Of a stretch of 64,000 bases of DNA, positions 1-30,124 are shown piece after piece. This DNA is from Hyunsoonleella pacifica (GTDB taxonomy: Bacteria > Bacteroidota > Bacteroidia > Flavobacteriales > Flavobacteriaceae). The DNA lies in contig NZ_SIRS01000002.1 of assembly GCF_004310335.1 (NCBI RefSeq), forward strand, positions 496,001 through 560,000, given 5' to 3'. Position 1 is the first letter of the stretch. Every line of letters starts with the position of its first letter. The notes under the pieces were generated by a model. That model did no database searches. It saw only the letters and a list, made by a program, of their open reading frames with translations, and had not been told where the DNA came from. A program made the position numbers and the translations under genes.

Positions 1-266
1 TACATTCACTAATCTTCGAAACAGAAAAAGCTATTGATAAGTTAGAGTTTTTAGATAGGAAAACCAAAGCTTCAATACTAGCACTGGATCCCGAGGAGTT
101 TATTGGGGTAATTACTGGAGACATTGGTACCGCAGCTGGCTGTGATGTAACCTGTACAAGTAGTTGTGGGGTTACATGTAACCAAAGTTGTGGTTACACC
201 ACGAACTTAGTTAATCCTGGAGATTTTAGAACTCTTGCTTTAAACAACAGAAGACTTTTGTTTTAA
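1..266 (+). CDS. lanthipeptide-like precursor peptide, 3' part (5' end outside window)
   Basis: An open frame enters from the left edge and ends at TAA 264-266. The visible part has an acidic, leader-like stretch (LALDPEEFIGVITG) and then a short core with five Cys exactly four residues apart, each of the last four preceded by Thr or Ser (VTC, SSC, VTC, QSC). A 24-residue tail ending RRLLF follows. A Ser/Thr- and Cys-rich core directly upstream of a lanthionine synthetase gene is what a lanthipeptide precursor should look like. The start codon is not in the window, so leader length is unknown. The long Cys-free tail after the core is unusual and could be a follower region or be removed. Ring pattern cannot be deduced from sequence alone. 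Precursor role is inference from composition and neighbour. Confidence 0.7.
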   Translation, partial: HSLIFETEKAIDKLEFLDRKTKASILALDPEEFIGVITGDIGTAAGCDVTCTSSCGVTCNQSCGYTTNLVNPGDFRTLALNNRRLLF

Positions 267-278
267 TCTTTTTAACCT

Positions 279-312
279 AATGCCCAGCCTTAAATAAGGC
301 TGGGCATTTTTA
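279..312 (+). terminator. intrinsic terminator between precursor and synthetase genes
   Basis: Arms TGCCCAGCCTTA (281-292) and TAAGGCTGGGCA (295-306) form a 12-bp stem with a tiny loop, followed by T residues. It ends about 13 bases before the synthetase ATG, so it probably terminates most precursor transcripts and lets a fraction read through, giving more precursor than enzyme. This arrangement is common in lanthipeptide operons. Confidence 0.85.
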
Positions 313-324
313 ATTAAAATAATA

Positions 325-2955
325 ATGGAAACATATAAAAACATCTTAGAGAAACATCATATAGATTTTGAAGAAAAACAACCATGGCTTATTTGCGGAA
401 AAACTAACTTAGTTCAAGGGTGGAAATTACATGTTTCTACAACACCAAATAAGATTCATCAATTATTTACTATCATTTGTCCGTATTTAAAACAAAATAA
501 AATTGCTTTTAAAATCATCGCTAATAAACAGTTGTGTATACAGCTAAACGATGGCGATTTAGGGGTGACACAAATAGGTAAGACTATGACTATTTACCCA
601 GAAAACGAAACAGTTGCAAAACAAATAATTACTTACATAAAGCAGAGAACCGATTTTAAATTTACAGGTCCAAAGATCTCCACAGACATTAGGCTAGGTA
701 GCATTCTTTATACTAGGTATGGTGGTTATAACCCTATTATTGAATATGATAGATTTGGGCGTAAAAAATTAATGATTTATGACCCCTATAACAATCTTAT
801 AGAAGACAACTATACAAGTCATTTAGATTTAAAATATTATAAGTTTCCATTTAATGAATTTAAATATGAGATACCTCAAGAAGAGAGAAGCAAACTTTTA
901 TTCAATCAATATTTAATATTAGATGTATTAAAGTCCCATCCGAAAGGACAAGTCTTTAGAGGGATTGATATTTCAAATAAAGAAAACATTAAACCTGTAG
1001 TTATAAAACAAGCAGTAGCCAATATATTTTGTGATGAAGATAGTGATAGAGACATCATTAACAGGTTGAATTCCCAATTTCAACTTTCAAAGAAAATAAA
1101 AAATATAAATATTCCTACACCATATGATTTAAAAAAGTATAAAGAAAATCATTATCTCATAACCGAATATATAGATGGTGGTAATTTAGAGCATAAAGTA
1201 TTTGAACTTTTAAGCACTTCAACATTTAAAGCATCTAAACTACAAACTAAAAAACTATTAATAAACTACGCTATTCAATTAATAGAAGAAGTTATAAGAT
1301 TACACGATCAAGGTATAGTGCACAGGGATTTATCAGCAAGTAATATATTAGTTTCAAAAAACGACTTTATATATTTATCAGATTTTGAATTAGCTTACGA
1401 TCTAAATAACTCTTCAGAACATCCGTTTAAAGGAGGTACAGATGGGTTCATGTCTTTAGAGCAAAAAGAAAATATGGAGCCTAAATTTGAAGATGACATT
1501 TATTCTGTTGGTGCAATAATTACTTTAATTTTTACGGGCTTAGACCCTAGGCGTGTACTAAAAGGTACTTTAAGTCAAATTAAAAAGCGGTTGTTACATT
1601 TAGCAGGAGGAGATATTGAAATTGTTCTAGATGATTTATTAAACTGTTTTAAACCGAGCAATGATAGACCATCTCTAGCCTATTTAAAATCAAAGTTTAA
1701 ACAGATTAAGTTTAAGGAAGTATCTAATAAAAAAAGTTCGTTTTCAATTACAAAGCAAGAATTAACAACATCAATAAATAATTGTATCAGTTCCATAGCG
1801 CATACTGTCTATACTTTGGATGATTTATGGTTTTCAGAAACTATAGATAAAAGCAATCACGAACAAAACAACAAAGCTTCAAATAAAACATTTTATGGTT
1901 CTTTAAACAGGGGAATTAGTGGTGTGTTATATGTTATGGCGCATGCTAAAATATCTGGTTTTGATATAACATCAAACTCAAAAATCATTGATAAATCCAT
2001 ATCATATTTAAAAAATAATTATGATGTTAACATTAATAAAAATTTATTGCCTGGTCTTCACTTTGGCACAGCCGGTATTGCGGTATCTATAGCATATTGT
2101 ATTTCATCTGGAATATTGCCAAGAAACAACGAAAACTTAGATTTTATAAAGAAAAGTCTCATACGAGATTTAGATTGGAGTGATTATACACATGGTGCTG
2201 CAGGTCAAGGCATGGCATGTTTAAAGGTTATGGAATTAATTGGGTTTGATAAAGATGTTGAGATGTTTTTACAAAAATGTTACGGCTACCTAAAAACTAA
2301 ACAGGAAGCACAAGGCTATTGGGTAATAGAGGAGGGGGTTGATGGTATTAGCGGAGAAACTATGTGTGGTTTTGCTCATGGAGTAGCAGGAATAGCAAAT
2401 TTTGTCTTGTCATATTATAAGTATAGTCAAAATATAGAGGCTTTAGTATGTGCCGAAAAAGCGGCAGAATGGCTTTACAAGAATAAAATTGACAAAGAGA
2501 CATATTACGAGTGGACGTTTAGTGAAACTAATCAAGAAATATGGAATTGGTGGTGCCATGGCGCTACAGGTATCGCTATTTTCTTTTTAAACATTTATGA
2601 TATTACAAAGAAGGAAAAATATTTAAACGTCATAACAAAATCTTTAAATGCGGTAAATAATAAACCCAATTTTCCTAATTTAAGTTTATGCCATGGTTTA
2701 AGTGGTATTGGGGAAATTTTGCTTCATGCTTATGGCATTACTAATAATAGAAGTTACCCAGATCGCATAAATTGGGTCTTAGGTGTTTTACTAAATTCAT
2801 TTATTAAAGAAAATAACAGTATGTATTGGTTAACTGAAAACCCTGATTATCCTACTGCTGATTTTTTTGTTGGCAATGGCGGTATACTTTATTTTTTAAT
2901 TGATTACTACAATATGTTTTACCAAAATAGAGATGCTAGATTTCCTATTACTTAA
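325..2955 (+). CDS. class IV-like (LanL/LanKC type) lanthipeptide synthetase
   Basis: This 876-residue protein matches the three-part class III/IV lanthionine synthetases. Residues ~1-190 form the lyase-like N-terminus (QGWKLHVS; GPKISTDIRLG). Residues ~195-460 form a Ser/Thr kinase-like domain with VVIK Lys228, HRD Asp335, Asn340 and DFE instead of DFG at 353-355. Residues ~520-870 form a LanC-like cyclase. The cyclase keeps all three zinc ligands, Cys744 (WWCHG) and Cys789-His790 (LCHG), which is the class IV hallmark; class III enzymes lack them. The enzyme would phosphorylate and eliminate Ser/Thr of the upstream precursor and then close thioether rings. ATG 325 follows the terminator directly. 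No transporter or protease gene is seen next to it on this side. The next gene is convergent. Confidence 0.85.
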   Translation: METYKNILEKHHIDFEEKQPWLICGKTNLVQGWKLHVSTTPNKIHQLFTIICPYLKQNKIAFKIIANKQLCIQLNDGDLGVTQIGKTMTIYPENETVAKQIITYIKQRTDFKFTGPKISTDIRLGSILYTRYGGYNPIIEYDRFGRKKLMIYDPYNNLIEDNYTSHLDLKYYKFPFNEFKYEIPQEERSKLLFNQYLILDVLKSHPKGQVFRGIDISNKENIKPVVIKQAVANIFCDEDSDRDIINRLNSQFQLSKKIKNINIPTPYDLKKYKENHYLITEYIDGGNLEHKVFELLSTSTFKASKLQTKKLLINYAIQLIEEVIRLHDQGIVHRDLSASNILVSKNDFIYLSDFELAYDLNNSSEHPFKGGTDGFMSLEQKENMEPKFEDDIYSVGAIITLIFTGLDPRRVLKGTLSQIKKRLLHLAGGDIEIVLDDLLNCFKPSNDRPSLAYLKSKFKQIKFKEVSNKKSSFSITKQELTTSINNCISSIAHTVYTLDDLWFSETIDKSNHEQNNKASNKTFYGSLNRGISGVLYVMAHAKISGFDITSNSKIIDKSISYLKNNYDVNINKNLLPGLHFGTAGIAVSIAYCISSGILPRNNENLDFIKKSLIRDLDWSDYTHGAAGQGMACLKVMELIGFDKDVEMFLQKCYGYLKTKQEAQGYWVIEEGVDGISGETMCGFAHGVAGIANFVLSYYKYSQNIEALVCAEKAAEWLYKNKIDKETYYEWTFSETNQEIWNWWCHGATGIAIFFLNIYDITKKEKYLNVITKSLNAVNNKPNFPNLSLCHGLSGIGEILLHAYGITNNRSYPDRINWVLGVLLNSFIKENNSMYWLTENPDYPTADFFVGNGGILYFLIDYYNMFYQNRDARFPIT

Positions 2956-3148
2956 ATAGTAATGTGAGTTTGTGTCTTTTTTTTCTTTATAAGAAATCAG
3001 AGAGTATTTTAGTTTTTTTTTAAGTAATCAAAAACGTTGACTTGAATTTGTGCCATAAAAAGTCTAGTAAAACCTTTAAACTAGAATTATAGCGACAGTT
3101 TAAAACAAAAGTATCTATAGATTTATTAAATAAAATTTTTATAATTTA

Positions 3149-5209
3149 CTAATCGTTAGATTTGAAAAACTGCTTTAGTTTTAAACTTGTGATAGTTAGT
3201 CTATTATAATATTTTTTATTCAATTTAGAGGCTTTTTTATAATGTTTTAAGGCTTTTTCATATTCCATGGTTATATCATAAAGATTATACAACCCCATAT
3301 GGGCATAAAAATAATCTTTGTTATGCTTTAAAGCGTCTAAATAATACTTTTCAGCTTCTACATATTTATTTGTCATTATGTTAGATAAACCATAATTAGT
3401 TAAATAAACAGCTTTATCAGTCTTTGATATATTACGTATTGATAAAGCTTTACGAAAATATATCATTGCTTCATCATAATTTTTGTATTCATTTAAAAAA
3501 AGCAAACCTAGCGAATTATATAAACTAGCATCATTAGGCGAATTACTTATTGCAATTCTATAATTCTCTTCAGCTTTAGCATTATCTTTATAATTATACA
3601 TGTATATATCGCCAAGATGGCTATATGCATAAGAGCTTGTTCCATCTAGTTCTATAGCCTTAATATAAAAAGACTTTGCTTTTGTATAATTTTTAAAATG
3701 ATACTGGTATAATCTTCCATAAGAATTATATAGATAAGAAGAATTACTGTATATTTTTTTTGCTTTGTCTAGATAGTATATAGCACTATCACCATTATTA
3801 TTGTATTTACTTTCTAAATACGATAAATTAGTATATGAACTCAAATAAAGAGAATCTACTTTAATGGCCTTTAAATATTGTTTTTTTGCCTTGGTATAAT
3901 CCTTAAAATGACTATTTGAATACAAGTCTCCTAAGCTGTTGTAAAGTGATGGGTTTTGCTTATCTAGTTCAATAGCTTTTAAGAGTAATTTTTCACTATT
4001 ATCAAATTTTTCAAAATAGTCATTTGCGTATAATTTTGCCAAACTACTATACAAATAAGAATTATCACTTAGTTTTAATGCTAGTCTATAAAATTTTTCA
4101 GCTTTATCATAATTACCATTTTCTTCAAACTCGTAAGCAATATTACTTAATGTTGAAGGTTTTCTTTCTAGTCCATTAACGTTTTTATATAATTCTATTG
4201 TTAAGTCTTTATCATTGGTATGTTGACTCGAAAAGATTGCTAATTCAGTGAATGAAAAAAAAGCAATATTCTCTATTTCTATAAGATTACTAAACTTATC
4301 AATATTATATCCACTGAAGTGGAATAAACACGTTAGTTTTGCCAGATTTATTTCCCGTTTTAATGGAGAATCATTGATTTGTTGAATACTATTTAAATAT
4401 TCTAAGGCTTTACTGTAGTTATTGGATCTTAACTCTTTTATACTAAAAGTCCAAAACAAAATATCATCTACATCCTGTTGAAGATAACCTTGACTTACGT
4501 CTGAAATACCAGTAAAATTGACAAAATCAGATTTTCCTTTTTCGTTCATTCTTTTGGTAACCTTATTCAATAAAAGGTAGCACAATCGTGCTTTTTCGTT
4601 TTTTATGTCTTGATCGCCGAAAATTACAATGTCAGCATTAAATTCTTTTCCAATTTTTTCTGCTTCCTCATGCGTTCTCGCATATTTATAATCTATAAAC
4701 TTTACTGCGATATTAAGTTCTTTTTCATGTTTTAATTCAATAAATCTATTTTTTAGAAAGAATTCTAAATTATCGTCATCATGAACATCTTTTTTAAAAG
4801 GTAGAATTAATATTTTAAACTGATCTTGAATCTTATTGAAGGGCGTACTAGTGTCAAAACGCAAAGATTCTTCATTATTTAACTTATAGTCAGGATTATT
4901 AATTAAAAAGATAAGAAGTGAACTTAAAAGTAAAATTAAAACAATTAAAAATGTTGAAATAGCAAATTGGGTTTTACTTCGCTGAGAAATGATTTCCTTT
5001 AGTTTAATTAATTTATCATCATCATCATTGATGTCATTTAGTTTTTCTTTTATACCGGGTTTTTCAGATAATTCATAAATCCTTTTATCATCCTCTTTTA
5101 ATCTTTTATTAATTACACCTTTGGTAAATAGAATAATAGCATTAATGATAGCAATTATATTAGCTATTAATGTTGAAAGTACTAGTATGTTAGATGATTC
5201 GCTAATCAT
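3149..5209 (-). CDS. membrane-anchored TPR protein with TolB/CsgG-like segment
   Basis: This 686-residue protein has two N-terminal hydrophobic segments (~8-30 and ~80-105) with a charged cytoplasmic stretch between them. A segment at ~130-210 resembles the alpha/beta TolB-N/CsgG-type fold (ILILPF; GKEFNADIVIFGD). About nine or ten tetratricopeptide repeats fill ~260-680, with typical A/Y...Y..A...NP..A..YN.LG spacing. TPR arrays bind other proteins; the partner is unknown. It overlaps the end of the upstream membrane gene by 8 bases, so the two are probably co-transcribed and act together. It is convergent with the lanthipeptide synthetase, and nothing shows a functional link to it. Exact role unknown. 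Confidence 0.7.
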   Translation of the reverse strand: MISESSNILVLSTLIANIIAIINAIILFTKGVINKRLKEDDKRIYELSEKPGIKEKLNDINDDDDKLIKLKEIISQRSKTQFAISTFLIVLILLLSSLLIFLINNPDYKLNNEESLRFDTSTPFNKIQDQFKILILPFKKDVHDDDNLEFFLKNRFIELKHEKELNIAVKFIDYKYARTHEEAEKIGKEFNADIVIFGDQDIKNEKARLCYLLLNKVTKRMNEKGKSDFVNFTGISDVSQGYLQQDVDDILFWTFSIKELRSNNYSKALEYLNSIQQINDSPLKREINLAKLTCLFHFSGYNIDKFSNLIEIENIAFFSFTELAIFSSQHTNDKDLTIELYKNVNGLERKPSTLSNIAYEFEENGNYDKAEKFYRLALKLSDNSYLYSSLAKLYANDYFEKFDNSEKLLLKAIELDKQNPSLYNSLGDLYSNSHFKDYTKAKKQYLKAIKVDSLYLSSYTNLSYLESKYNNNGDSAIYYLDKAKKIYSNSSYLYNSYGRLYQYHFKNYTKAKSFYIKAIELDGTSSYAYSHLGDIYMYNYKDNAKAEENYRIAISNSPNDASLYNSLGLLFLNEYKNYDEAMIYFRKALSIRNISKTDKAVYLTNYGLSNIMTNKYVEAEKYYLDALKHNKDYFYAHMGLYNLYDITMEYEKALKHYKKASKLNKKYYNRLTITSLKLKQFFKSND

Positions 5210-6359
5210 TAAAAAAGGGCCCTTTTTTATAGCTAAACCTAGTTTTGTCTATAGGAATTATTATTTCACTCAATATTTTTGAAGTCCATTTGTTATGCCA
5301 TATATCGACATGATATTTATTGATAAGATCTAAGCTATCCATATATAAATCATTCAATAGATATTTAGTTTTAGTAGATTCTATCCCTAGAATAATCTTT
5401 CCAAACTTCAATATTGCAGGATCGTTATTTAAGTTATTCATTAAATACTTTAGCGTCCAATAAGAGCATTCAACAAAATATTCCTCTACATAGTAATAGT
5501 TTTCATAACTATTTATTTGATTAGTATATTGATTTACGTCCAATGGTTTTACTTCATCATGTATTAATGTTTTAAAATTGGTATACGCAAGTATAAGATC
5601 TTTTAGGCTTTCATTATAGTAGCGGTTTTTTTTACTTGACTTTAAAACAGCTCTATTCATTAGAGCTAAACTAAACCAATCTCTATCTTTATTATCTACT
5701 ATTGGTATATGCTTCCATATATTAATTGCATCAGTGTAGTACTTGATTGCATTAGCAATTCTTCCTTGTTCATGATATTGAACTGCAATTTTATAGTTTA
5801 ATATTTGTGATGCTTCATTTGGTTGTAAATCAAAATCTGTTTTTTTTATAAACAGTACATTACTTTCTTTTGATAACGCCCATTCTGGAAGGTATAAATC
5901 TCTTTCTAAAATAAAATAATCCTTATATTCTTTATATTCTTGCCATATTAACCAAAAACAAAATACATGTAATACGAAAGTGCTTATTTTATGCTCGTAA
6001 GGTAATACGAATATTAAAATTGTATCTAAAAAATATATTATTAAAGTTAGTTTGTAAGCCCACAATTCTCTTTTTTTCGCTCTAATTGCCAAATAAATAA
6101 AAAAGCATATAATAAGGCCATTAATAAATAAGCCAATAATTATCATAATAGTTGGTGCATTATTTATAAGTTCATCAATTACAGTACAAACATTTAATGC
6201 TAGACCAACAAACCTCAATTGGTCAAATTGGCTTAAAATTGAATTTAAGGCTGTGTAAAAGGCAATAAAGTACATAATATTATCCGTGTGAAGCGCTGTT
6301 TTTCTTGCTTCAAAAAGTTTTTCAGCCTTTTCAAAATTTAAGTACCGTATTCTTTCCAT
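5202..6359 (-). CDS. membrane protein with C-terminal TPR-like region
   Basis: This 385-residue protein has four hydrophobic segments in residues ~28-145, including runs such as IMIIIGLFINGLIICFFIYL and LIIYFLDTILIFVLPY. A soluble C-terminal half follows with one or two TPR-like helices (YKIAVQYHEQGRIANAIKYY). No catalytic motif is recognised. It is the first gene of a two-gene unit with the downstream TPR protein (8-base overlap), which suggests a shared membrane complex. The family was not recognised. Confidence 0.6.
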   Translation of the reverse strand: MERIRYLNFEKAEKLFEARKTALHTDNIMYFIAFYTALNSILSQFDQLRFVGLALNVCTVIDELINNAPTIMIIIGLFINGLIICFFIYLAIRAKKRELWAYKLTLIIYFLDTILIFVLPYEHKISTFVLHVFCFWLIWQEYKEYKDYFILERDLYLPEWALSKESNVLFIKKTDFDLQPNEASQILNYKIAVQYHEQGRIANAIKYYTDAINIWKHIPIVDNKDRDWFSLALMNRAVLKSSKKNRYYNESLKDLILAYTNFKTLIHDEVKPLDVNQYTNQINSYENYYYVEEYFVECSYWTLKYLMNNLNNDPAILKFGKIILGIESTKTKYLLNDLYMDSLDLINKYHVDIWHNKWTSKILSEIIIPIDKTRFSYKKGPFFND

Positions 6360-6490
6360 ACAAATAATTTTTCATTTTAACACTTTAATACTGCTAAATA
6401 TATGAAGATATTTCTTTCATGATATTATTTTTTTAAAAATATTTTTTGAAAGTAAGTTTTTATATTGCTAATATTCAGTTCAATAGTCTA

Positions 6491-6540
6491 TTTAGATAGT
6501 TAAAACACGAAGCATCTAAGTTTTTATTAAACTATCTAAA
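6491..6540. repeat. inverted repeat
   Basis: TTTAGATAGTT (6491-6501) and AACTATCTAAA (6530-6540) are perfect 11-bp inverted arms about 28 bp apart. It could be an operator or hairpin upstream of whatever transcript ends at 6767. Function unknown. Confidence 0.5.
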
Positions 6541-6635
6541 TCGTCTAATAATAAAATTAGAATTACAATGGAAAAACACCGTTTTTAATTGAGATAAGAT
6601 GGATAAGTAAATTCATTTTTTAAATCACAGAAATC

Positions 6636-6726
6636 ATGAAATTAGTAACAGCAGAAAAATGCAAAAATTGATAAGCGTCTTAGATGTTTTTCTATAAGTT
6701 CTGCTATTGAGAGTAATATTAGTTAA
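6636..6726 (+). pseudogene. possible broken small peptide gene ahead of a terminator
   Basis: ATG 6636 opens a frame reading MKLVTAEKCK, which stops after 11 codons. Removing one A from the A5 run at 6663-6667 extends it to about 29 residues ending SSAIESNIS, with the stop at 6724-6726 touching the terminator stem. A short Ser-rich peptide in front of a terminator would fit a RiPP precursor or leader, but a chance reading frame is just as possible. Confidence 0.2.
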
Positions 6727-6767
6727 GCCGAACAATATCTATAAAGTAGAATATTGTTCGGCTTTTT
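6726..6767 (+). terminator. intrinsic terminator
   Basis: AGCCGAACAATAT (6726-6738) pairs perfectly with ATATTGTTCGGCT (6751-6763), and a T tract follows on the plus strand only. No complete plus-strand gene lies upstream, so it implies a small RNA or the broken small frame just before it. Confidence 0.8.
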
Positions 6768-6838: not shown

Positions 6839-8150
6839 TTATTTTGCGACACCTATCCCAGCAAATAGTGTTTTAAAAGAATTGGCTTCAAGAGCAAAAA
6901 CGCCATCATTACCAATAGTGTTTATTGGTCTCCAAAAGCTTCCATCAAAAAATGAAATTAGGCCTTGATAAGTGTTAAGGCCCGCAGGCTCAGTTACTCC
7001 CCAAGGATTGCGCAAAACAATATATTTTTTATCATTATTAAAAGCCCAGCCTAAAACAGTATAGCAATGGCTAGCTACAACATTGGTACCTGTGTAGGTT
7101 TTGCTAGAAGACCCATAGGTCCATGCAGTCATGGGATGGATTGTTTTTCTAGACATAGAGTTTGCTCTCACTATAGAGTACAATTCACTCCCAGTTCTAC
7201 TATTCGTGTTATAATAATGTGGTTTTTTGTTGTTGAGTTGTGCTGTAGCTTTCACGCAATTACCCCATGCAGTTTTGGTAATATCTGGTTTATCAGAGTT
7301 TGTTTTTGTGATCCATTTAGCAAAAGCCTTTTCGTATAATGCAGGATAAATCTCATTATTATCATTAGAGCGGCAATAAATCCAATTACTATTAGAAGCG
7401 TTAACTACAGTTTTATCTGAAACCTCTACGAGTTTAGTAGGCGCATCTTTACCGCCTCCTTTTGAGTAAAATTTAATAGCATTAACCCTTCTGGTTTCCC
7501 CAGTGCTAGTAGCTCTATTTCTATGTACAATCCTGTAAGGATCTGCCCAGGCCACTGCATTTAAAGCTGCAATAAAATAACAATTTGCTACTGCACCTTG
7601 TATAGGGTCTGAATATTCTACCACATCATTAAAAAAATCGCCTTTATTTACCCAAACACCATTTTGTGGCGTCCAATCTTTTTTAGAAGCCCCAGATTTG
7701 TTAAGTACAATAGCAGCTAAAGCTTTACTTAACACCGATTTAGATAATGTACGGTTTATATTTGGGATGTCTAATTTAAGCTCTAAAGAGTCTTTATTAA
7801 TCAAACCAGATTTTATTTTTACATCACTAAGCGTTTCAATACCTAACTTTTTTAACTCGCTTAGTTTTTTTAGTCTAGATATATCTGGGGTCTCAGCGTC
7901 TTCAAGTGTTCTTATTTTAATTTCAGAAGCCTTTAATGGTTCAGGCATATTGTCCTTGTTCAATTTTAATCCAGCATAAATTGGCGAATTAAATTTCATA
8001 TCAAAAAGTTCACTGTAATCCGTTTCCAGAGTGTCCTCCATAATTTTGATTGAGTTTTTTTTTACTCCAATCAATTTTTCTTCCAAGTAGAGTTTCAGTT
8101 AAGGCATAGGGGTTTATTGCTCCTATACTTAGTTTTGGTGCTTTGTCCAT
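6839..8150 (-). CDS. calpain-like (C2 family) cysteine protease, apparent frameshift near N-terminus
   Basis: The long frame (6839-8086) carries the calpain-type catalytic triad. Numbered from the TTG at 8086, these are Cys169 in QGAVANCYFIAAL, His340 in ASHCYTVLGW and Asn360 in LRNPWG. That frame has only a TTG to start from. A better start is ATG 8150-8148, which reads MDKAPKLSIGAINPYALTET and is one base out of frame. The two join exactly if the A9 run on the minus strand (8055-8063) had eight A residues, giving ...DWSKKNSIKIMED. So this is a ~436-residue protease with a homopolymer frameshift, either a sequencing error, a phase-variable tract or a recent pseudogene. No signal peptide is seen. 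It is divergent from the RiPP-like operon at 8631 and could process a peptide, but that is only a neighbour argument. Confidence 0.75.
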
Positions 8151-8630: not shown

Positions 8631-9332
8631 ATGTTGAATAAATATATTTCTTGTATTCTAGAATTTATTCCAAACGCTGTTTATGGTACTATTTCTGCGG
8701 ACGATCAACGTTTAAGCAGTATTGTAAATTTGTTAAATCAAGAAGAGTATAAAGAATTCAACAAATATAAAACGGGAAGCTTTTTTGTATTTGGAATTCC
8801 TATTGACGATGAAGCGTTATGGTTTTGGAATCATGTTAATGAGAAAAGATATTTAACTGCAAACCATATACTTGAAAGTACAATTGTGGAATTAAGTAAT
8901 CAATTCCCAGATTCGAGGATTCGTTCTATAGACAGAATATCAAACAATAAAATAGCCCAAGTAGAACTAGCTGAATTAGCAGGTATTGGGACACGAGGAT
9001 GGAATAATTTATTACTTCACCCAGAATATGGAGCATACCTTCAATTAGCTACGATAGTAACTCTTGATAAGTATTCAGAAAAAGAATATTCCACTTCATT
9101 AGTAGAAAATATTTGCATCAAATGTGGAAATTGTATTGATGCGTGCCCAGTAAATGCTATTTCAGAAACTGAATTTATAGCATACAGGTGCTCTAGTGTA
9201 GTTGCATCCCCTGAGAAAGTTAAGAGCAAGGCAGTAGCTGTAACAACTAATAGTTATATTGAATGTAGGGCGTGTATCGATAGTTGTCCTATAGGCTTAA
9301 ATATTGAAAAATTAAATGAATGGAAAAGATAG
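8631..9332 (+). CDS. QueG-like dicluster 4Fe-4S protein
   Basis: This 233-residue protein carries two ferredoxin clusters. The first has Cys162, 165, 168 and 172 (CIKCGNCIDACP). The second uses Cys212, 215 and 219 (CRACIDSCP), probably with Cys187. Just before them, AELAGIG...LLLHPEYGAYLQLATIVT closely follows the epoxyqueuosine reductase (QueG) pattern. QueG itself is longer and binds cobalamin; this protein is shorter at its N-terminus, so it is more likely a specialised electron donor or reductase than the tRNA enzyme. Its stop overlaps the following radical SAM gene by 13 bases, so the two are translationally coupled. Electron delivery to the radical SAM enzyme is inference. Confidence 0.75.
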   Translation: MLNKYISCILEFIPNAVYGTISADDQRLSSIVNLLNQEEYKEFNKYKTGSFFVFGIPIDDEALWFWNHVNEKRYLTANHILESTIVELSNQFPDSRIRSIDRISNNKIAQVELAELAGIGTRGWNNLLLHPEYGAYLQLATIVTLDKYSEKEYSTSLVENICIKCGNCIDACPVNAISETEFIAYRCSSVVASPEKVKSKAVAVTTNSYIECRACIDSCPIGLNIEKLNEWKR

Positions 9333-10573
9333 AAGTTAAAGAAAAGGAGTTAAGAGAAGATGGTGCTTATGTATTTCATCATCCACCAAAATTTCTTTGG
9401 GAGAAAGGAGTTTTACCAAAAATGTCCTGGACAGATTACACTTTATATGTTCATGTTCCATTCTGTAGAGATATATGCACATTCTGTACTTTCGAGCGTA
9501 AAAAATTAGAAAAAGGTTCTTTGAGTCAATTTATGAATAGTGTGATTAAAGAAATTGATATAGTTCTTCAGAAATCAGACTTTTCAAAATCAAAACCTAG
9601 AGCTGTGTATTTAGGAGGAGGAACAGCCTCTTTATTATCTGTTTCTGATTTAGAAATTCTAATTAATAAAATTAAGACTTCATTTAACATTGGTGATGAG
9701 ATAGAATTTACTTTAGAATGTGAACCAGGCACCAAACAAGCAGCCGATTTTAAAAAACTTGTAAAAATTGGTGTTAATCGTGTTTCTATAGGGTTTCAGG
9801 CTTTTCAAAATGAAATTCTTAAATCAATGAATAGAATGCATACCATTGAGCAAAGCATAAAGATGTTTGGAGATGCAAGAGATGCTGGAATTGAAAATAT
9901 GCATATTGATTTAATGTTCGGATTACCAGGACAAGTAATGAGTGATTGGAAATTCTCAATCGATCAAGCGATTATTTTGGCGCCTACACACTTTTCACTT
10001 TATCCATTGATTGTCTTTGAAAGTGAGCTTCTTGATCGTAAAATGACTAATAAACCCGAATTAGAAATGCCACCTTCAGAGGTCATTCATCAAATGCGAG
10101 AATATGCACAACAACAGCTTGCATTACATGGTTATGAACAATATTCTTTAACTGAATATTGCAAAAAAGGGTATGAATGTAAATATGTTATTTCTAATTG
10201 GAACGGATCAGACTATTTAGGGTTTGGCCCCGCGGCCTATAGTCGTAATAAGAATTACTTATGGGAAAACCATGTATTACACCATTTGTACAATTCTGAT
10301 GTAGCAAATGGTAATTTACCATTTAACAAGATGTTTAAAATGAATACATCAGATATCTGTATTCGAGATATCGCTATGGGTATATGTCTGTTGGATGTAC
10401 CTTTAAAACCTATTTTAAATAAAGTTGGGGTTCTAGATCCAATTGTTAAGCAACGCCTTTTAGAACTTGAAAGAGAAGGTCATATAATTTTAAGTGATCA
10501 ATCTATAAAATTGAGAAAAACAAGTCAACGATATGCTACTCATGTAATGAAACAAATTATAGGAGATAGTTGA
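9320..10573 (+). CDS. HemW/HemN-like radical SAM enzyme
   Basis: This 417-residue protein has the radical SAM signature CX3CX2C at Cys49, Cys53 and Cys56 (HVPFCRDICTFC). It also has the GGGTAS strand, HIDLMFGLPGQ, and the HemN-family segment YLGFGPAAYSR with a winged-helix-like C-terminus. HemW is a heme chaperone. HemN-like class C radical SAM proteins also include methyltransferases and RiPP tailoring enzymes. Its position between a ferredoxin-like protein and a small leader-like peptide gene, and next to an ATP-grasp gene, favours a tailoring role over housekeeping heme work. It overlaps the upstream gene by 13 bases. The substrate is not known. Confidence 0.8.
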   Translation: MEKIEVKEKELREDGAYVFHHPPKFLWEKGVLPKMSWTDYTLYVHVPFCRDICTFCTFERKKLEKGSLSQFMNSVIKEIDIVLQKSDFSKSKPRAVYLGGGTASLLSVSDLEILINKIKTSFNIGDEIEFTLECEPGTKQAADFKKLVKIGVNRVSIGFQAFQNEILKSMNRMHTIEQSIKMFGDARDAGIENMHIDLMFGLPGQVMSDWKFSIDQAIILAPTHFSLYPLIVFESELLDRKMTNKPELEMPPSEVIHQMREYAQQQLALHGYEQYSLTEYCKKGYECKYVISNWNGSDYLGFGPAAYSRNKNYLWENHVLHHLYNSDVANGNLPFNKMFKMNTSDICIRDIAMGICLLDVPLKPILNKVGVLDPIVKQRLLELEREGHIILSDQSIKLRKTSQRYATHVMKQIIGDS

Positions 10574-10612
10574 GAATAAAAACTAAGTATAAACCATTAA
10601 AAATAGTAAACT

Positions 10613-10876
10613 ATGATTCAAAAAGCAATGTTAATGAAGGTGTCATTCGTATTTGAAGTGGCAAGAAAAGATTTAGAATTTTCTAAGGATTTACACGAGA
10701 ACCCACTAAAAACACTTCAAGAAAGTGGAATTGATCTTTCATCAAATGAGACGATAGCAGTGATTGATATTGTTAATGATACATCAGTTTCTACATTGGC
10801 CTCTAAATTAAGAGATGTTAGAAAAAGTTGGGAAGCTATTAAAGTAGAACAAAACATTGGTGGTAAACGAAAATAG
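10613..10876 (+). CDS. small protein with NHLP-like leader region, candidate RiPP precursor
   Basis: This 87-residue protein lies between the radical SAM and ATP-grasp genes. Residues ~17-57 (DLEFSKDLHENP, then LKTLQESGIDL and VIDIVNDT) follow the nitrile-hydratase-like leader (NHLP) pattern: D..F...L..NP...L...G..L...........V.DT. The remaining ~30 residues (ending NIGGKRK) have no Cys, a single Trp and several Lys/Ser, so if this is a precursor the modified core is not a thioether type. It could instead be a non-maturing recognition or carrier protein. Spacing is 39 bases from the upstream gene and 25 to the next, consistent with one operon. The precursor role is inference from leader resemblance and context. 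Confidence 0.65.
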   Translation: MIQKAMLMKVSFVFEVARKDLEFSKDLHENPLKTLQESGIDLSSNETIAVIDIVNDTSVSTLASKLRDVRKSWEAIKVEQNIGGKRK

Positions 10877-10901
10877 TGATTACAGTTTTTCAAGTTAAAT
10901 T

Positions 10902-12056
10902 ATGGCATTACTCGGTATTGATTTGATTTTAGATGAATACCGACAATGGCATATATTAGAGGTTAACGACCATCCTACAGGATTATATTTAGCAGATCAG
11001 TTATTAAACACATCTACCCAATTTTCAAAATATTTAAGTAGAAACGGAATAGATAAAATTGCAGAAAAGCTAATATCAAAATGTAGAAATAAAGCTATAG
11101 TACTTCTGCTGCCAGATTGTTTCAGGATAAAAAATGGATTCAGTAATCGTCCTATTTCTATCACAGATAATATGTTTTTGGGCGATTATAGGATAGAGAA
11201 AACGTTGGAAGATTTTAATGCGCTTTTAACATATCTAAATGGCAAAAAAATAGAAACATTTATTGCTGATTTTAGTTCGATTAAGCAAGTAGGTTCTAAA
11301 ATATCATTAAAATCGATAGAGGTAGGAGCCATGTATCGGAGAAGCTCACAATTCCCCAAAAATGAACCAGATTGCTTTTGCTTAAACGACCTTCGCCTTA
11401 GAGCAATTTGTCCTGACAAAAAGCAGTTAGCGGAATTATTGATAGATGTAGGTTTAAGCAGTAACTGTTTAATTTATCATGATTTTAATAATGCATATAC
11501 TTTAGCAGAAGAATGGCTAATATCAGGACAGTCAATTATTATTAAACCTGAAAAAGGCTCTGCTAGTGTTGGAATTCAAAAAGTATCATCAATTAAAGAT
11601 TTAAAAGAAAAGAAAGAGTTACTAGATAAGAGCAAGGATTCATCAAATATGATTTTTCAAAAATGGATTGAGCCCTCTAAAACATTCAAAAACGGAAAGC
11701 CTTATTACTATGATATTCGTATAAATATCTTAGATGGTAAAGTAATATCAGGTTTTGGAAGAAGTTCAGCTGCACCATGTGAAGATGTTTCATGGAGTGA
11801 AACACCCTTAGTATGGCTCACAACTACTGGTAAAGTAGTGCCTTTAGCAATAGGAGAAAACAAAGTAGGGAAAACAGATACTATTTATTTGTCTGAACAA
11901 GAGATGTCTCAACTTGAAACGATAGCAGGCCTTATTAATTTAGCGGTACATACAAATTGTGACAACAGCTTTTATAATGATACTACTAAGAAAATAGGTA
12001 ATTTTAAAAGTCAAGAAGGGATTAAGGATAAAATGCATTACATCTTTCTTGAATAA
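10902..12056 (+). CDS. ATP-grasp family protein with unusual motif order
   Basis: This 384-residue protein contains ATP-grasp signatures. Residues 212-228 (IIIKPEKGSASVGIQKV) form the ATP-binding lobe and 271-287 (DIRINILDGKVISGFGR) the following strands. The metal-binding EVN motif, which normally closes the domain, sits instead at residues 20-22 in LGIDLILDEYRQWHILEVND. The C-terminus has no second EVN/ELN. This looks like a circular permutation, or a tail of one ATP-grasp domain fused to the head of another. An in-frame TAA (10896-10898) lies two codons before ATG 10902, which fixes the start. ATP-grasp enzymes join carboxylates to amines and act in several RiPP pathways; here the likely substrate is the neighbouring small protein (inference). 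Confidence 0.7.
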   Translation: MALLGIDLILDEYRQWHILEVNDHPTGLYLADQLLNTSTQFSKYLSRNGIDKIAEKLISKCRNKAIVLLLPDCFRIKNGFSNRPISITDNMFLGDYRIEKTLEDFNALLTYLNGKKIETFIADFSSIKQVGSKISLKSIEVGAMYRRSSQFPKNEPDCFCLNDLRLRAICPDKKQLAELLIDVGLSSNCLIYHDFNNAYTLAEEWLISGQSIIIKPEKGSASVGIQKVSSIKDLKEKKELLDKSKDSSNMIFQKWIEPSKTFKNGKPYYYDIRINILDGKVISGFGRSSAAPCEDVSWSETPLVWLTTTGKVVPLAIGENKVGKTDTIYLSEQEMSQLETIAGLINLAVHTNCDNSFYNDTTKKIGNFKSQEGIKDKMHYIFLE

Positions 12057-27862: not shown

Positions 27863-30124
27863 ATGGAATACTTAGCAGGAAATATTGAAATTGAAAATAA
27901 ACCTATAGAAATTGATTTATGGGATAAAATCACTGAATTAATTGATAATGATAGGGGAGTTTTTGGTTATAAAATACCTTCATTAGGCGAAAGCGATTAT
28001 AATAATATCCCTTCGTTTGTATTAAGAAGTTCAAAGTATGGTATCATTATTTTTGAAATCATTGATGAAAAAATAGCAGATTTTGATGAAGAAAATGAAT
28101 ATTGGGAAACTTCAAATGGAGAATTTATATATTCAAGAGAATTAATAATTAACTTATACCTACAAGAACTAGAAACAAGATTAAAAAAAGATAGTAGAAT
28201 TTTCGATATTAGAAGAAATAAATGGTTAGAAGAAATTAATATTCAAAGTTATTTGATTTTCGGTTTTAATACAAATGAAGAAATAAGTGCTTTAAATCTG
28301 AAAGCCAAGAATCCAATTCTATCAAATTATATTTCTAGTGATAACTTAGATAATGACTTAAAATCACTATTGGATGTAAACCATAGTATTGACCAAAATA
28401 AAATAGATGTAATTGATGCTATTTTTGATGGTTCCGATGTTTTTAGTAAAACGAAGAAAAAGAAAATAATTGAGCAACCTGAAAATGTAAATGATTTTAT
28501 AAAAAAATCTCTAAACTATACTTTTAAATTAGACCATATACAACGTCAAGTTGCTTTACAAGTCCCACCAGGACCACAGAGAATAAGAGGCTTGGCAGGT
28601 ACAGGAAAAACTGTAATTCTTTGTATGAAAGCAGCACTAGCGCATAAAGCGTTTCCTGAAAAGAAAATACTATTTGTTTTTAATACTCAAAGTATGTATG
28701 GTCAAGTAAAGAAAGCAATTACTGAATACTATTTTAACGAAACAAAGACAATGCCTAATTGGGCTAACTTACATATTTTACACGCTTGGGGAGGAAGTAG
28801 TAAACCAGGAGTTTATTATAATACTGCAAATTCAGCTGGTGTAAAGCCAAAAACTTTTATGAATGTCAAGAATAGAGCTAATCCACTAGATGCAGTTTTT
28901 GAAGATTTATTATCAAGTTCAAAAAGTAAAATTATTCCAGAATATGATATTTCTTTAATAGATGAAGCACAAGATTTTTCTACATCATTTTTCGAAACGA
29001 TATTTCATATTACTAAATCTGTTAATGATGAAAATAATGATAAAAGAATAATTTGGGCTTATGATGAGTTCCAATCTCTTACAGATATAAAAATAAGAGA
29101 GCCTGAAGAGTTATTTGGAAAGGCTGATTCTGGAGAACCAAATATACCTAATTCTAAATTGGAAGGATATTATAAAGGAAAAATTGAAAAAGATTTTGTT
29201 TTACCTAATTCATATAGAAATCCAAGAATTAGTTTGATGGTTGCACACGGACTTGCTTTAGGTTTATATTCTAAATATGGAAAAGTACCGATGGAAGATA
29301 GTAAAGATTGGGTAGCTAGAGGATATGCTATTCACTCTCCAGACAAAAGGATTTTTGAAAGTGGTGACAATGTAAAAGTTGAAAGACCAGAAAGATTTAG
29401 TAAAAATATTCTCGAACGCTTGCTAAAAGAAAGTGATAGTGAGGAAAGAAAACTGGTACAGTTTAAAAAATTTGAAGATATTAACTCAGAATTAAATGCA
29501 GTAGTTTCAAAAGTTGAATGGTTAATTAATAATCAAAAAGTTGAACCCGAAGAAATAGTAATTATCAACTTAGATACAAGAAATTCAAGAAGTCAGTTCC
29601 AATATATCCGTCAACAATTAGATATTAAAGACATAAAAGCTATAACTCCAGGTTATGTAGAACGTTCAGATGTATTCAAAGAACCTGGTTTTGTTACTCT
29701 TACCACAGCTTTTAGAGCAAAAGGAAATGAAGCAAATATAGTATTTGTTATAAATACTCAGAAAGTTATAAACGACTCAACCTTTAGAATGAGAAATGCT
29801 ATTTTTGTTGCAATAACAAGGTCAAGAGGATGGAATTACATTTATGGGTATGGAGATAAAATTGATGATTTAGAAAAAGAAATTGATGATATAAAAACAG
29901 ATTATCCATTTTTTAACTTTCCATTCCCAAGTGAAGATGAAATAAAACGACGTTTAACAATATTACAAAGTAACAAGAATGTTGAAAAAGCGGATAAAGA
30001 AATTGATAAACTTCTAAAAGAAGCTGATTACAAGGCTTTATTACTAGAAAAACTTTCTAAAGACCCAGAACTATTAGCTGAAATATTGAAGTTAGAAAAG
30101 TCTAAAAAGAAAGAAAATGATTGA
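27863..30124 (+). CDS. UvrD/Rep-like superfamily 1 helicase with N-terminal accessory domain
   Basis: This 753-residue protein contains Walker A GLAGTGKT near residue 243, Walker B-type SLIDEAQDF near 365, a motif with AFRAKGNEANIVFVI, and the closing AITRSRGWNYIYG, all typical of UvrD-type SF1 helicases. Residues 1-200 hold a small alpha/beta domain (LRSSKYGIIIFEIID) resembling nuclease-related NERD modules, without catalytic residues I can assign. The C-terminal ~80 residues are charged and helical. It overlaps the downstream DUF2290-like gene by 8 bases, so both are expected in equal amounts. It probably acts on DNA, possibly in phage or plasmid defence, given the island context (inference). 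Confidence 0.8.
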   Translation: MEYLAGNIEIENKPIEIDLWDKITELIDNDRGVFGYKIPSLGESDYNNIPSFVLRSSKYGIIIFEIIDEKIADFDEENEYWETSNGEFIYSRELIINLYLQELETRLKKDSRIFDIRRNKWLEEINIQSYLIFGFNTNEEISALNLKAKNPILSNYISSDNLDNDLKSLLDVNHSIDQNKIDVIDAIFDGSDVFSKTKKKKIIEQPENVNDFIKKSLNYTFKLDHIQRQVALQVPPGPQRIRGLAGTGKTVILCMKAALAHKAFPEKKILFVFNTQSMYGQVKKAITEYYFNETKTMPNWANLHILHAWGGSSKPGVYYNTANSAGVKPKTFMNVKNRANPLDAVFEDLLSSSKSKIIPEYDISLIDEAQDFSTSFFETIFHITKSVNDENNDKRIIWAYDEFQSLTDIKIREPEELFGKADSGEPNIPNSKLEGYYKGKIEKDFVLPNSYRNPRISLMVAHGLALGLYSKYGKVPMEDSKDWVARGYAIHSPDKRIFESGDNVKVERPERFSKNILERLLKESDSEERKLVQFKKFEDINSELNAVVSKVEWLINNQKVEPEEIVIINLDTRNSRSQFQYIRQQLDIKDIKAITPGYVERSDVFKEPGFVTLTTAFRAKGNEANIVFVINTQKVINDSTFRMRNAIFVAITRSRGWNYIYGYGDKIDDLEKEIDDIKTDYPFFNFPFPSEDEIKRRLTILQSNKNVEKADKEIDKLLKEADYKALLLEKLSKDPELLAEILKLEKSKKKEND

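Follow-up and report, generated by a model that had tools for sequence, protein, structure and literature searches.

A putative class IV-type lanthipeptide gene pair in Hyunsoonleella pacifica, with a core of evenly spaced cysteines shared with Haematobacter massiliensis

Does Hyunsoonleella pacifica, a member of the Bacteroidota, carry a complete class IV-type lanthipeptide system, and what would such a system make of a precursor with a cysteine at every fourth residue of its core? The question is raised by a 64,000 nt stretch of its genome, here called the window (G000:C12:496001-560000; contig NZ_SIRS01000002.1, positions 496,001 to 560,000), which starts within a small precursor gene, lanA, and continues into a lanthionine synthetase gene, lanL. 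An earlier interpretation made without database searches (the sequence-only reading) had described the pair as a class IV-like lanthipeptide locus. We propose, with a probability of about 0.8, that the two genes form a class IV-type lanthipeptide operon, the chemistry being reasoned from characterised class IV enzymes.

The synthetase had been described as having lyase, kinase and cyclase regions with Cys-Cys-His at residues 744, 789 and 790. This description holds, as three Pfam domains score above their cut-offs (Table 1) and the zinc ligands are where they had been placed (C744, bases 2554-2556; C789, 2689-2691; H790, 2692-2694). The cyclase region also keeps D620 and H685. The kinase region has K228, D335 of the HRD motif, N340 and D353 of DFE, and the lyase residues K34, H36, K63, K86, Y91 and R131 are conserved across a 14-row alignment. 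The catalytic roles are those described for VenL (PMC2843593) and ThurKC (PMC10604976); these two enzymes are outside the alignment and their residues were matched by spacing from the published numbering, with the exception of K108, D152 and R191 of ThurKC. No other protein of the source genome matches LANC_like at E ≤ 0.001.

The alignment and trees contain the window enzyme, its relative from Haematobacter massiliensis, five LanL-like references (two of them annotated lanL) and seven LanKC references. The references come solely from plasmid records, and three (L031, L032 and L034) were read from stop to stop and have N-termini that are too long. The Cys-Cys-His ligands align in all five LanL-like references and in the Haematobacter enzyme. 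They are absent from all seven LanKC references, which also lack H685 (7/7) and D620 (6/7, one keeping it). The whole-enzyme tree joins the window enzyme to its Haematobacter relative with support of 100/99 and places the two on the LanL-like side, next to a Rhodococcus enzyme; the seven LanKC sequences are on a separate side at 100/100. The LanKC sequences also stay apart, seven of seven, in the trees made from the lyase (100/99), kinase (100/99) and LanC (100/100) domains, so that in none of the four trees does the window enzyme cluster with the zinc-free class III enzymes. The pair recurs in the LanC-only tree at 89/89; the lyase-only tree carried a warning from the tool that long branches meet. 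The split between classes III and IV is stable and the exact neighbour of the window enzyme is less so. LanKC enzymes such as ThurKC share the order of the three domains and the RamC_N-type lyase with the window enzyme, but are described as having no zinc ligands (PMC10604976) and are on the opposite side in every tree made; assignment to class III was rejected on both grounds.

A profile search, which had been suggested as a check, gave LanL (NF038150; 386.5 bits, cut-off 650) as the best NCBIfam model, followed by LanKC (249 bits, cut-off 575), with no other kinase family among the best curated models. The Haematobacter relative scores 551.2 bits against NF038150. The zinc site, the trees and the best model are in favour of the class IV-like label, and the score below the equivalog cut-off qualifies it. 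Because of that score we use the description 'class IV-type, divergent': judged by these comparisons, the lanL product is a divergent class IV-type enzyme and not a LanL equivalog. It shares the lyase-kinase-cyclase order, the catalytic residues and the Cys-Cys-His site with VenL, the LanL enzyme of venezuelin (PMC2843593).

The 5' end of the precursor gene, which lies outside the window, was retrieved. The full lanA (L002:11943-12266) starts ~57 bases upstream of window base 1 and encodes 107 amino acids (aa), including the complete leader of ~66 residues. The predicted core consists of five exact C-x-x-[S/T] tetrads, CDVT, CTSS, CGVT, CNQS and CGYT, followed by T and N. The sequence-only reading had remarked on five cysteines exactly four apart, mostly preceded by Thr or Ser, and on a long tail without cysteine, and we find the same: the cysteines are residues 67, 71, 75, 79 and 83, four of the five have Ser/Thr at -1, and the Cys-free tail is 24 residues long. 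In a random model of five Cys in 107 residues, the probability that all are spaced exactly 4 apart is ~9e-7, and that of even spacing at any distance from 1 to 20 is ~1.2e-5; both values were computed after the pattern had been noticed. Neither the window nor the Haematobacter precursor matches any Pfam or NCBIfam model above its cut-off, the leader families included (NHLP leader, 11.4 of the 50.9 bits required). In this the locus differs from known LanL systems, and its precursor is also unlike the 39 aa ALQxL-type class IV precursor of reference locus L033.

The best plasmid match to the enzyme is in the alphaproteobacterium H. massiliensis (pOT1-4, NZ_CP035514.1), with 30% identity over 98% of the length. 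The locus, whose proteins are annotated 'hypothetical protein' (WP_131389806.1) and 'lanthionine synthetase LanC family protein' (WP_035712020.1), is also present in strain CCUG 47968 (NZ_JGYG01000008.1). Directly before the synthetase gene is the gene for a 146 aa precursor with a homologous leader and two copies of the core: AGCDVTCTSSCGATCAQSCGYTTN. The two precursors are 52% identical across residues 1-88, and their tails have R-R-x-x-F in common in an alignment of these two sequences, with the Haematobacter row joined by hand. Over residues A65-N88 the window core is identical to each Haematobacter copy at 22 of 24 positions. The only variable positions are 77 and 80, both spacers, and all five Cys and eight Ser/Thr are kept, giving the consensus CDVTCTSSCG[V/A]TC[N/A]QSCGYTTN.

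The codons behave differently from the residues. Between the window and Haematobacter cores, 12-13 of the 24 codons differ silently and two differ with a change of residue, and the two Haematobacter copies, compared with each other, have different codons at 12 of the 24 positions, all of them synonymous. The silent changes and a core DNA identity of 75-78% led us to reject a recent transfer of the core DNA between the phyla. Taken together with the ~30% identity of the enzymes, the data suggest that the peptide has been held while the DNA and the enzyme have drifted. The core thus appears to be tightly preserved under strong selection, on a comparison of two species. Gene content, gene order and an intergenic hairpin are common to the two loci. 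They differ in the number of core copies, in the plasmid location of the Haematobacter genes and in the presence there of an EhuAB system downstream.

On this basis the LanL-like kinase domain would phosphorylate Ser/Thr residues of the precursor and the lyase domain would eliminate the phosphate to give dehydroalanine (Dha) or dehydrobutyrine (Dhb). The zinc LanC domain would then add the Cys thiols, turning the conserved core into a (methyl)lanthionine peptide with several rings. The leader would guide the enzyme. The first Cys of the core comes straight after Ala-Gly, both in the window precursor and in each Haematobacter copy, suggesting that the leader is probably cleaved between this dipeptide and the Cys.

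Ring formation in lanthipeptides usually runs forward, with the Ser/Thr upstream of the Cys. A forward product of this core would be an overlapping ladder of three interlocked rings (T70-C75, S74-C79 and T78-C83), with C67 and C71 left out of the rings as free thiols or in a disulfide. This common direction and an i+5 spacing that fits three of the five Cys speak for the ladder; it would, however, leave two invariant Cys unused, and the C-x-x-[S/T] pattern fits five of five, a weak argument alone given the Ser/Thr-rich core. T63 could pair with C67 in the window, but there is no counterpart within 10 residues before the second Haematobacter copy. We regard the forward ladder as unlikely. Our preferred, though tentative, hypothesis is a series of five tandem C-x-x-Dha/Dhb rings with the Cys N-terminal, because each Cys then has a partner at an equal distance and the forward direction leaves C67 unpaired in the core. 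The chance of Ser/Thr at +3 of all five Cys is ~7e-5 with the Ser/Thr frequency of the whole precursor but ~0.02 with that of the core (8 of 17 non-Cys residues), and the -1 and +3 counts are not independent, most of the residues being counted in both because the Cys are spaced by 4. In a core with so much Ser/Thr, the argument for rings with the Cys first is mainly one of exclusion. Cys-first rings do occur in a class II peptide, SyncA6 (PMC9872173).

The same regular, invariant cysteines could be read without many rings at all: dehydration and cyclization would be partial, and the ladder itself would bind a metal or fold around disulfides, with few lanthionines. The exact spacing of 4 in two species and the lack of a recognised export gene directly beside either pair are consistent with this, but the enzyme keeps the zinc ligands and acid/base residues of its cyclase, and the eight core Ser/Thr, superfluous for a pure metal site, are kept together with the Cys. 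We consider it highly unlikely.

Several observations weigh against the lanthipeptide operon proposed here. The enzyme falls below the curated cut-offs of both LanL and LanKC. Its branch in the tree is long (1.73) and was flagged by the tree tool, so its exact placement is to be read with caution. The predicted structures are poor (mean predicted local distance difference test scores of 37.8 and 47.5). The precursor family numbers only two members among those found. In the usual forward direction, C67 has no core acceptor and C71 only the adjacent T70. Finally, no export or protease gene directly adjoins either pair, as judged mostly by eye and, for six neighbours of the window pair, by Pfam.

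For the window, exporters were sought by eye among open reading frames (ORFs), with a minimum length of 60 aa for the 12 kb upstream and of 110 aa for the region extending to base 30000, and no ATP-binding cassette (ABC) exporter was recognised beside the pair; in this it differs from venezuelin, where venT and venH are beside VenL (PMC2843593). The nearest protease candidate is a gene for a calpain-like peptidase (6839-8086), 3.9 kb past lanL in the resident flank, and in Haematobacter the nearest transport candidate, ~3.2 kb beyond the synthetase, is EhuAB, an ABC system for uptake of the ectoine type. Neither looks dedicated to the pathway, though either may take part in it. Export by a shared C39 peptidase transporter is unlikely, as the source genome has two (on contig C32) and the Haematobacter genome none at E ≤ 0.001. 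The contig C32 locus (L047:3293-11941) has two C39-peptidase ABC transporters, to which inspection by eye adds membrane-fusion proteins and a pair of small peptides (60 and 64 aa) with Gly-Gly-like leaders; it is a separate bacteriocin-type export locus.

Between lanA and lanL is a terminator- or attenuator-like hairpin. A 63 nt stretch containing it folds with a minimum free energy of -23.7 kcal/mol (z -4.87) and the 89 nt Haematobacter gap, which has no T-run, with -32.2 (z -4.24); in both cases none of 200 shuffles was as low. The hairpin probably keeps the enzyme transcript below that of the precursor by attenuation, although we hold this less firmly than the assignment of the enzyme. An Rfam scan of 6 kb of the locus gave no match.

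What would the peptide be for? Because the core is unusually invariant and no export or immunity gene was recognised directly beside the pair, its purpose may not be the ordinary one of antibiotic warfare, a suggestion that we also hold less firmly. The proposed ring arrangement, and only this, resembles freyrasin: PapA carries six Cys-X3-Asp motifs that the radical S-adenosylmethionine (SAM) enzyme PapB links by thioethers to a residue C-terminal of the Cys, in line or nested (PMC9413430). Freyrasin differs in its enzyme (radical SAM rather than kinase, lyase and zinc cyclase), its acceptor (Asp rather than Ser/Thr) and its spacing (+4 rather than the +3 of the window core). A peptide with five in-line four-residue thioether rings would be the lanthionine counterpart of freyrasin, produced by a zinc class IV enzyme and kept nearly unaltered in two phyla because its task, for instance in signalling or in the binding of a single target, is fixed, unlike that of a diversifying antibiotic; we offer this as a speculative and somewhat unlikely idea.

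The product was also considered as a radical SAM CXXX-repeat peptide (TIGR04117) and this was rejected. The model scores 10.0 bits for the 87-residue window part and 10.8 bits for the Haematobacter precursor (cut-off 50), the adjoining enzyme is LanL-like, and the HemN-like radical SAM gene, recognised by eye, is 6.4 kb past lanL. That gene belongs to a region (8631-12056) with an iron-sulphur protein (Pfam) followed, by eye, by the HemN-like radical SAM and ATP-grasp-looking proteins, which is possibly a small biosynthetic cluster. Elsewhere, on the Anaerococcus prevotii plasmid pAPRE01 (L035:1-796), a radical SAM maturase assigned by its annotation to the CXXX-repeat target family is next to a class III lanthipeptide cluster.

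The lanA-lanL pair is within an insert of ~6.8 kb that also contains a TPR gene and a gene for a 385 aa protein, and whose left edge is ~319 bases before the window (left part in L002:11681-12000). The insert is bounded by a direct repeat spanning the 3' end of an SPFH gene, part of a 76 aa gene and a terminator hairpin; the left copy (~300 bp) is intact and the right copy is decayed. Three relatives were retrieved at the SPFH gene, of which only one member of the genus (G1458) has both flanks, and in this genome, the closest relative found at the site, the calpain gene comes immediately after the SPFH and 76 aa genes, the insert being absent. The G+C content of the insert is 27.8%, against 32.7% and 35% beside it and a window mean of 30.9%. 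The arrangement looks like an integration with duplication or a recombination with a diverged copy, and these comparisons indicate that the gene pair was acquired. The HemN-like gene is outside the insert. Upstream of lanA are SusC/SusD-like genes, recognised by eye, consistent with a Bacteroidota genome.

An acquired pair might be no more than a decaying, non-functional passenger of a mobile insert. This would agree with the vacant site in G1458, the low G+C content and the long enzyme branch, and with the distribution in the genus: a LanL-like gene is found in one of 12 genomes (E ≤ 1e-10), the source genome itself, and in none of the 11 others, which also lack the DNA of window positions 2956-6400 apart from one 26-base match. 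The reading frames are open without stops, however, the catalytic residues that were checked are intact and the core is kept at the protein level despite the silent changes. A passenger is therefore most improbable.

Table 1. Features of the lanA-lanL locus and its insert, with positions in the window
Feature	Position	Strand	Evidence
lanA, 3' part (residues 21-107)	1..266	+	ORF calling; homology to the precursor adjoining the Haematobacter enzyme
Predicted core C67-N88 (CDVT CTSS CGVT CNQS CGYT TN)	141..206	+	Five C-x-x-[S/T] units
Rest of Cys-free C-terminal tail, possible follower, ending RRLLF	207..263	+	Aligned with the Haematobacter tail at R103, R104 and F107
Hairpin, 13 bp stem then T-rich stretch, terminator/attenuator-like, between lanA and lanL	279..308	+	Terminator prediction; folding
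lanL, predicted class IV-type lanthionine synthetase, 876 aa	325..2955	+	ORF, domains, residues, trees
Phospho-Ser/Thr lyase domain RamC_N, residues 16-163	370..813	+	97.9 bits, Pfam cut-off 27
Ser/Thr kinase domain, residues ~207-410	943..1554	+	Pfam Pkinase 218-410, 76.4 bits, cut-off 31.7
LanC cyclase domain, residues 526-863	1900..2913	+	LANC_like 134.9 bits, cut-off 23.2
TPR protein, 686 aa, inside insert; without evidence tying it to the pathway	3149..5209	-	ORF, Pfam
385 aa protein, no Pfam match at E ≤ 0.01, inside insert; without evidence tying it to the pathway	5202..6359	-	
Decayed direct repeat of the left flank, right edge of insert	6494..6766	.	77.8% identity over 320 aligned columns

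How widespread are the enzyme and the core? The genome groups were sampled, with a few candidates scored per genome, neighbours were mostly judged by eye, and the gene tables of PLSDB are incomplete. In the family, 27 of 397 genomes have some match to the enzyme at E ≤ 0.001; among the matches listed, the only one of full length is that of the source genome. RamC_N is found in three of 395 genomes of the phylum, one being the source genome. One of the other two matches is a 467 aa protein (L024:544-1947, genome G635), which by eye consists of lyase and kinase and has no room for a LanC domain, and the other is a 388 aa protein (L025). On the Haematobacter side, relatives of the enzyme at E ≤ 1e-20 are found in one of 295 genomes of its family and one of 398 of its phylum, in both cases the Haematobacter genome itself.

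A scan of contigs of 84,980 species for the precursor gave 26 pattern matches, of which one, Haematobacter, is a relative; two peptide patterns were used, so that altered cores would escape, and the source genome is possibly outside the scanned set. A precursor profile matched two of 395 genomes of the phylum, the window itself and L060 (E 0.0015), the latter taken as a chance match that overlaps a frame resembling a TonB-dependent receptor (by eye). Searching plasmids with an 85-residue part of the Haematobacter precursor retrieved that precursor itself and one Natronococcus match at E 0.3. Scans of viral contigs with the enzyme and with the precursor gave no relative; in a phage collection there were 17 records, the 10 matches listed covering the kinase part only, and a further search gave one match at E 0.2.

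As far as seen in these collections, the core seems specific to the window/Haematobacter pair, because the more distant LanL-like locus of Rhodococcus has a different Cys-rich candidate precursor. This candidate, beside a divergent LanL-like enzyme on plasmid pRB98 of Rhodococcus oxybenzonivorans (L031:1886-2293), ends ...DCCCSSCCFTCSMATQVTGCTSTFVQ and has runs of adjacent Cys. A plasmid of Salipiger sp. CCB-MM3 carries a gene annotated 'protein kinase' (L042:4992-6563; 523 aa from its CDS coordinates), whose product resembles the Haematobacter synthetase over the lyase and kinase regions; before it is a small precursor-like protein with the core ACTCHSRTVITTSTPLCTTTTTTTSA (L042:4587-4862) and after it a methyltransferase. 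It is possible that this locus is a dehydratase-only peptide system.

Finally, how unexpected is such a system in the Bacteroidota? The sequence-only reading had called it unusual. In its favour, a 2025 review places class IV lanthipeptides so far only in genomes of Actinobacteria and Firmicutes (PMC12328550), and in a 2020 survey, which sorted 815 class IV clusters, LanKC and LanL together are mostly from these two phyla (PMC7268733). A 2014 study, on the other hand, reported VenL-like lyase domains in proteobacteria, sphingobacteria and mollicutes as well (PMC4159009). Because such domains were already known outside Actinobacteria and Firmicutes, the presence of this kind of enzyme in Bacteroidota extends its range but is no surprise in principle. 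Literature searches for the core string, for lanthipeptide with Haematobacter, and for LanL with class IV and Bacteroidota found nothing. The five-tetrad core and its near-invariance across two phyla did not come up in any of these literature searches.

If the assignment is right, class IV-type lanthipeptide biosynthesis would extend to a complete gene pair in the Bacteroidota and in an alphaproteobacterium. The two loci form a natural pair: their enzymes have diverged widely and the substrate core has not. This makes it possible to test what sets the direction and size of the rings in class IV enzymes, and whether some lanthipeptides persist for a fixed, non-antibiotic function. Should each C-x-x-[S/T] unit close on itself, peptide engineering would gain a highly regular scaffold.

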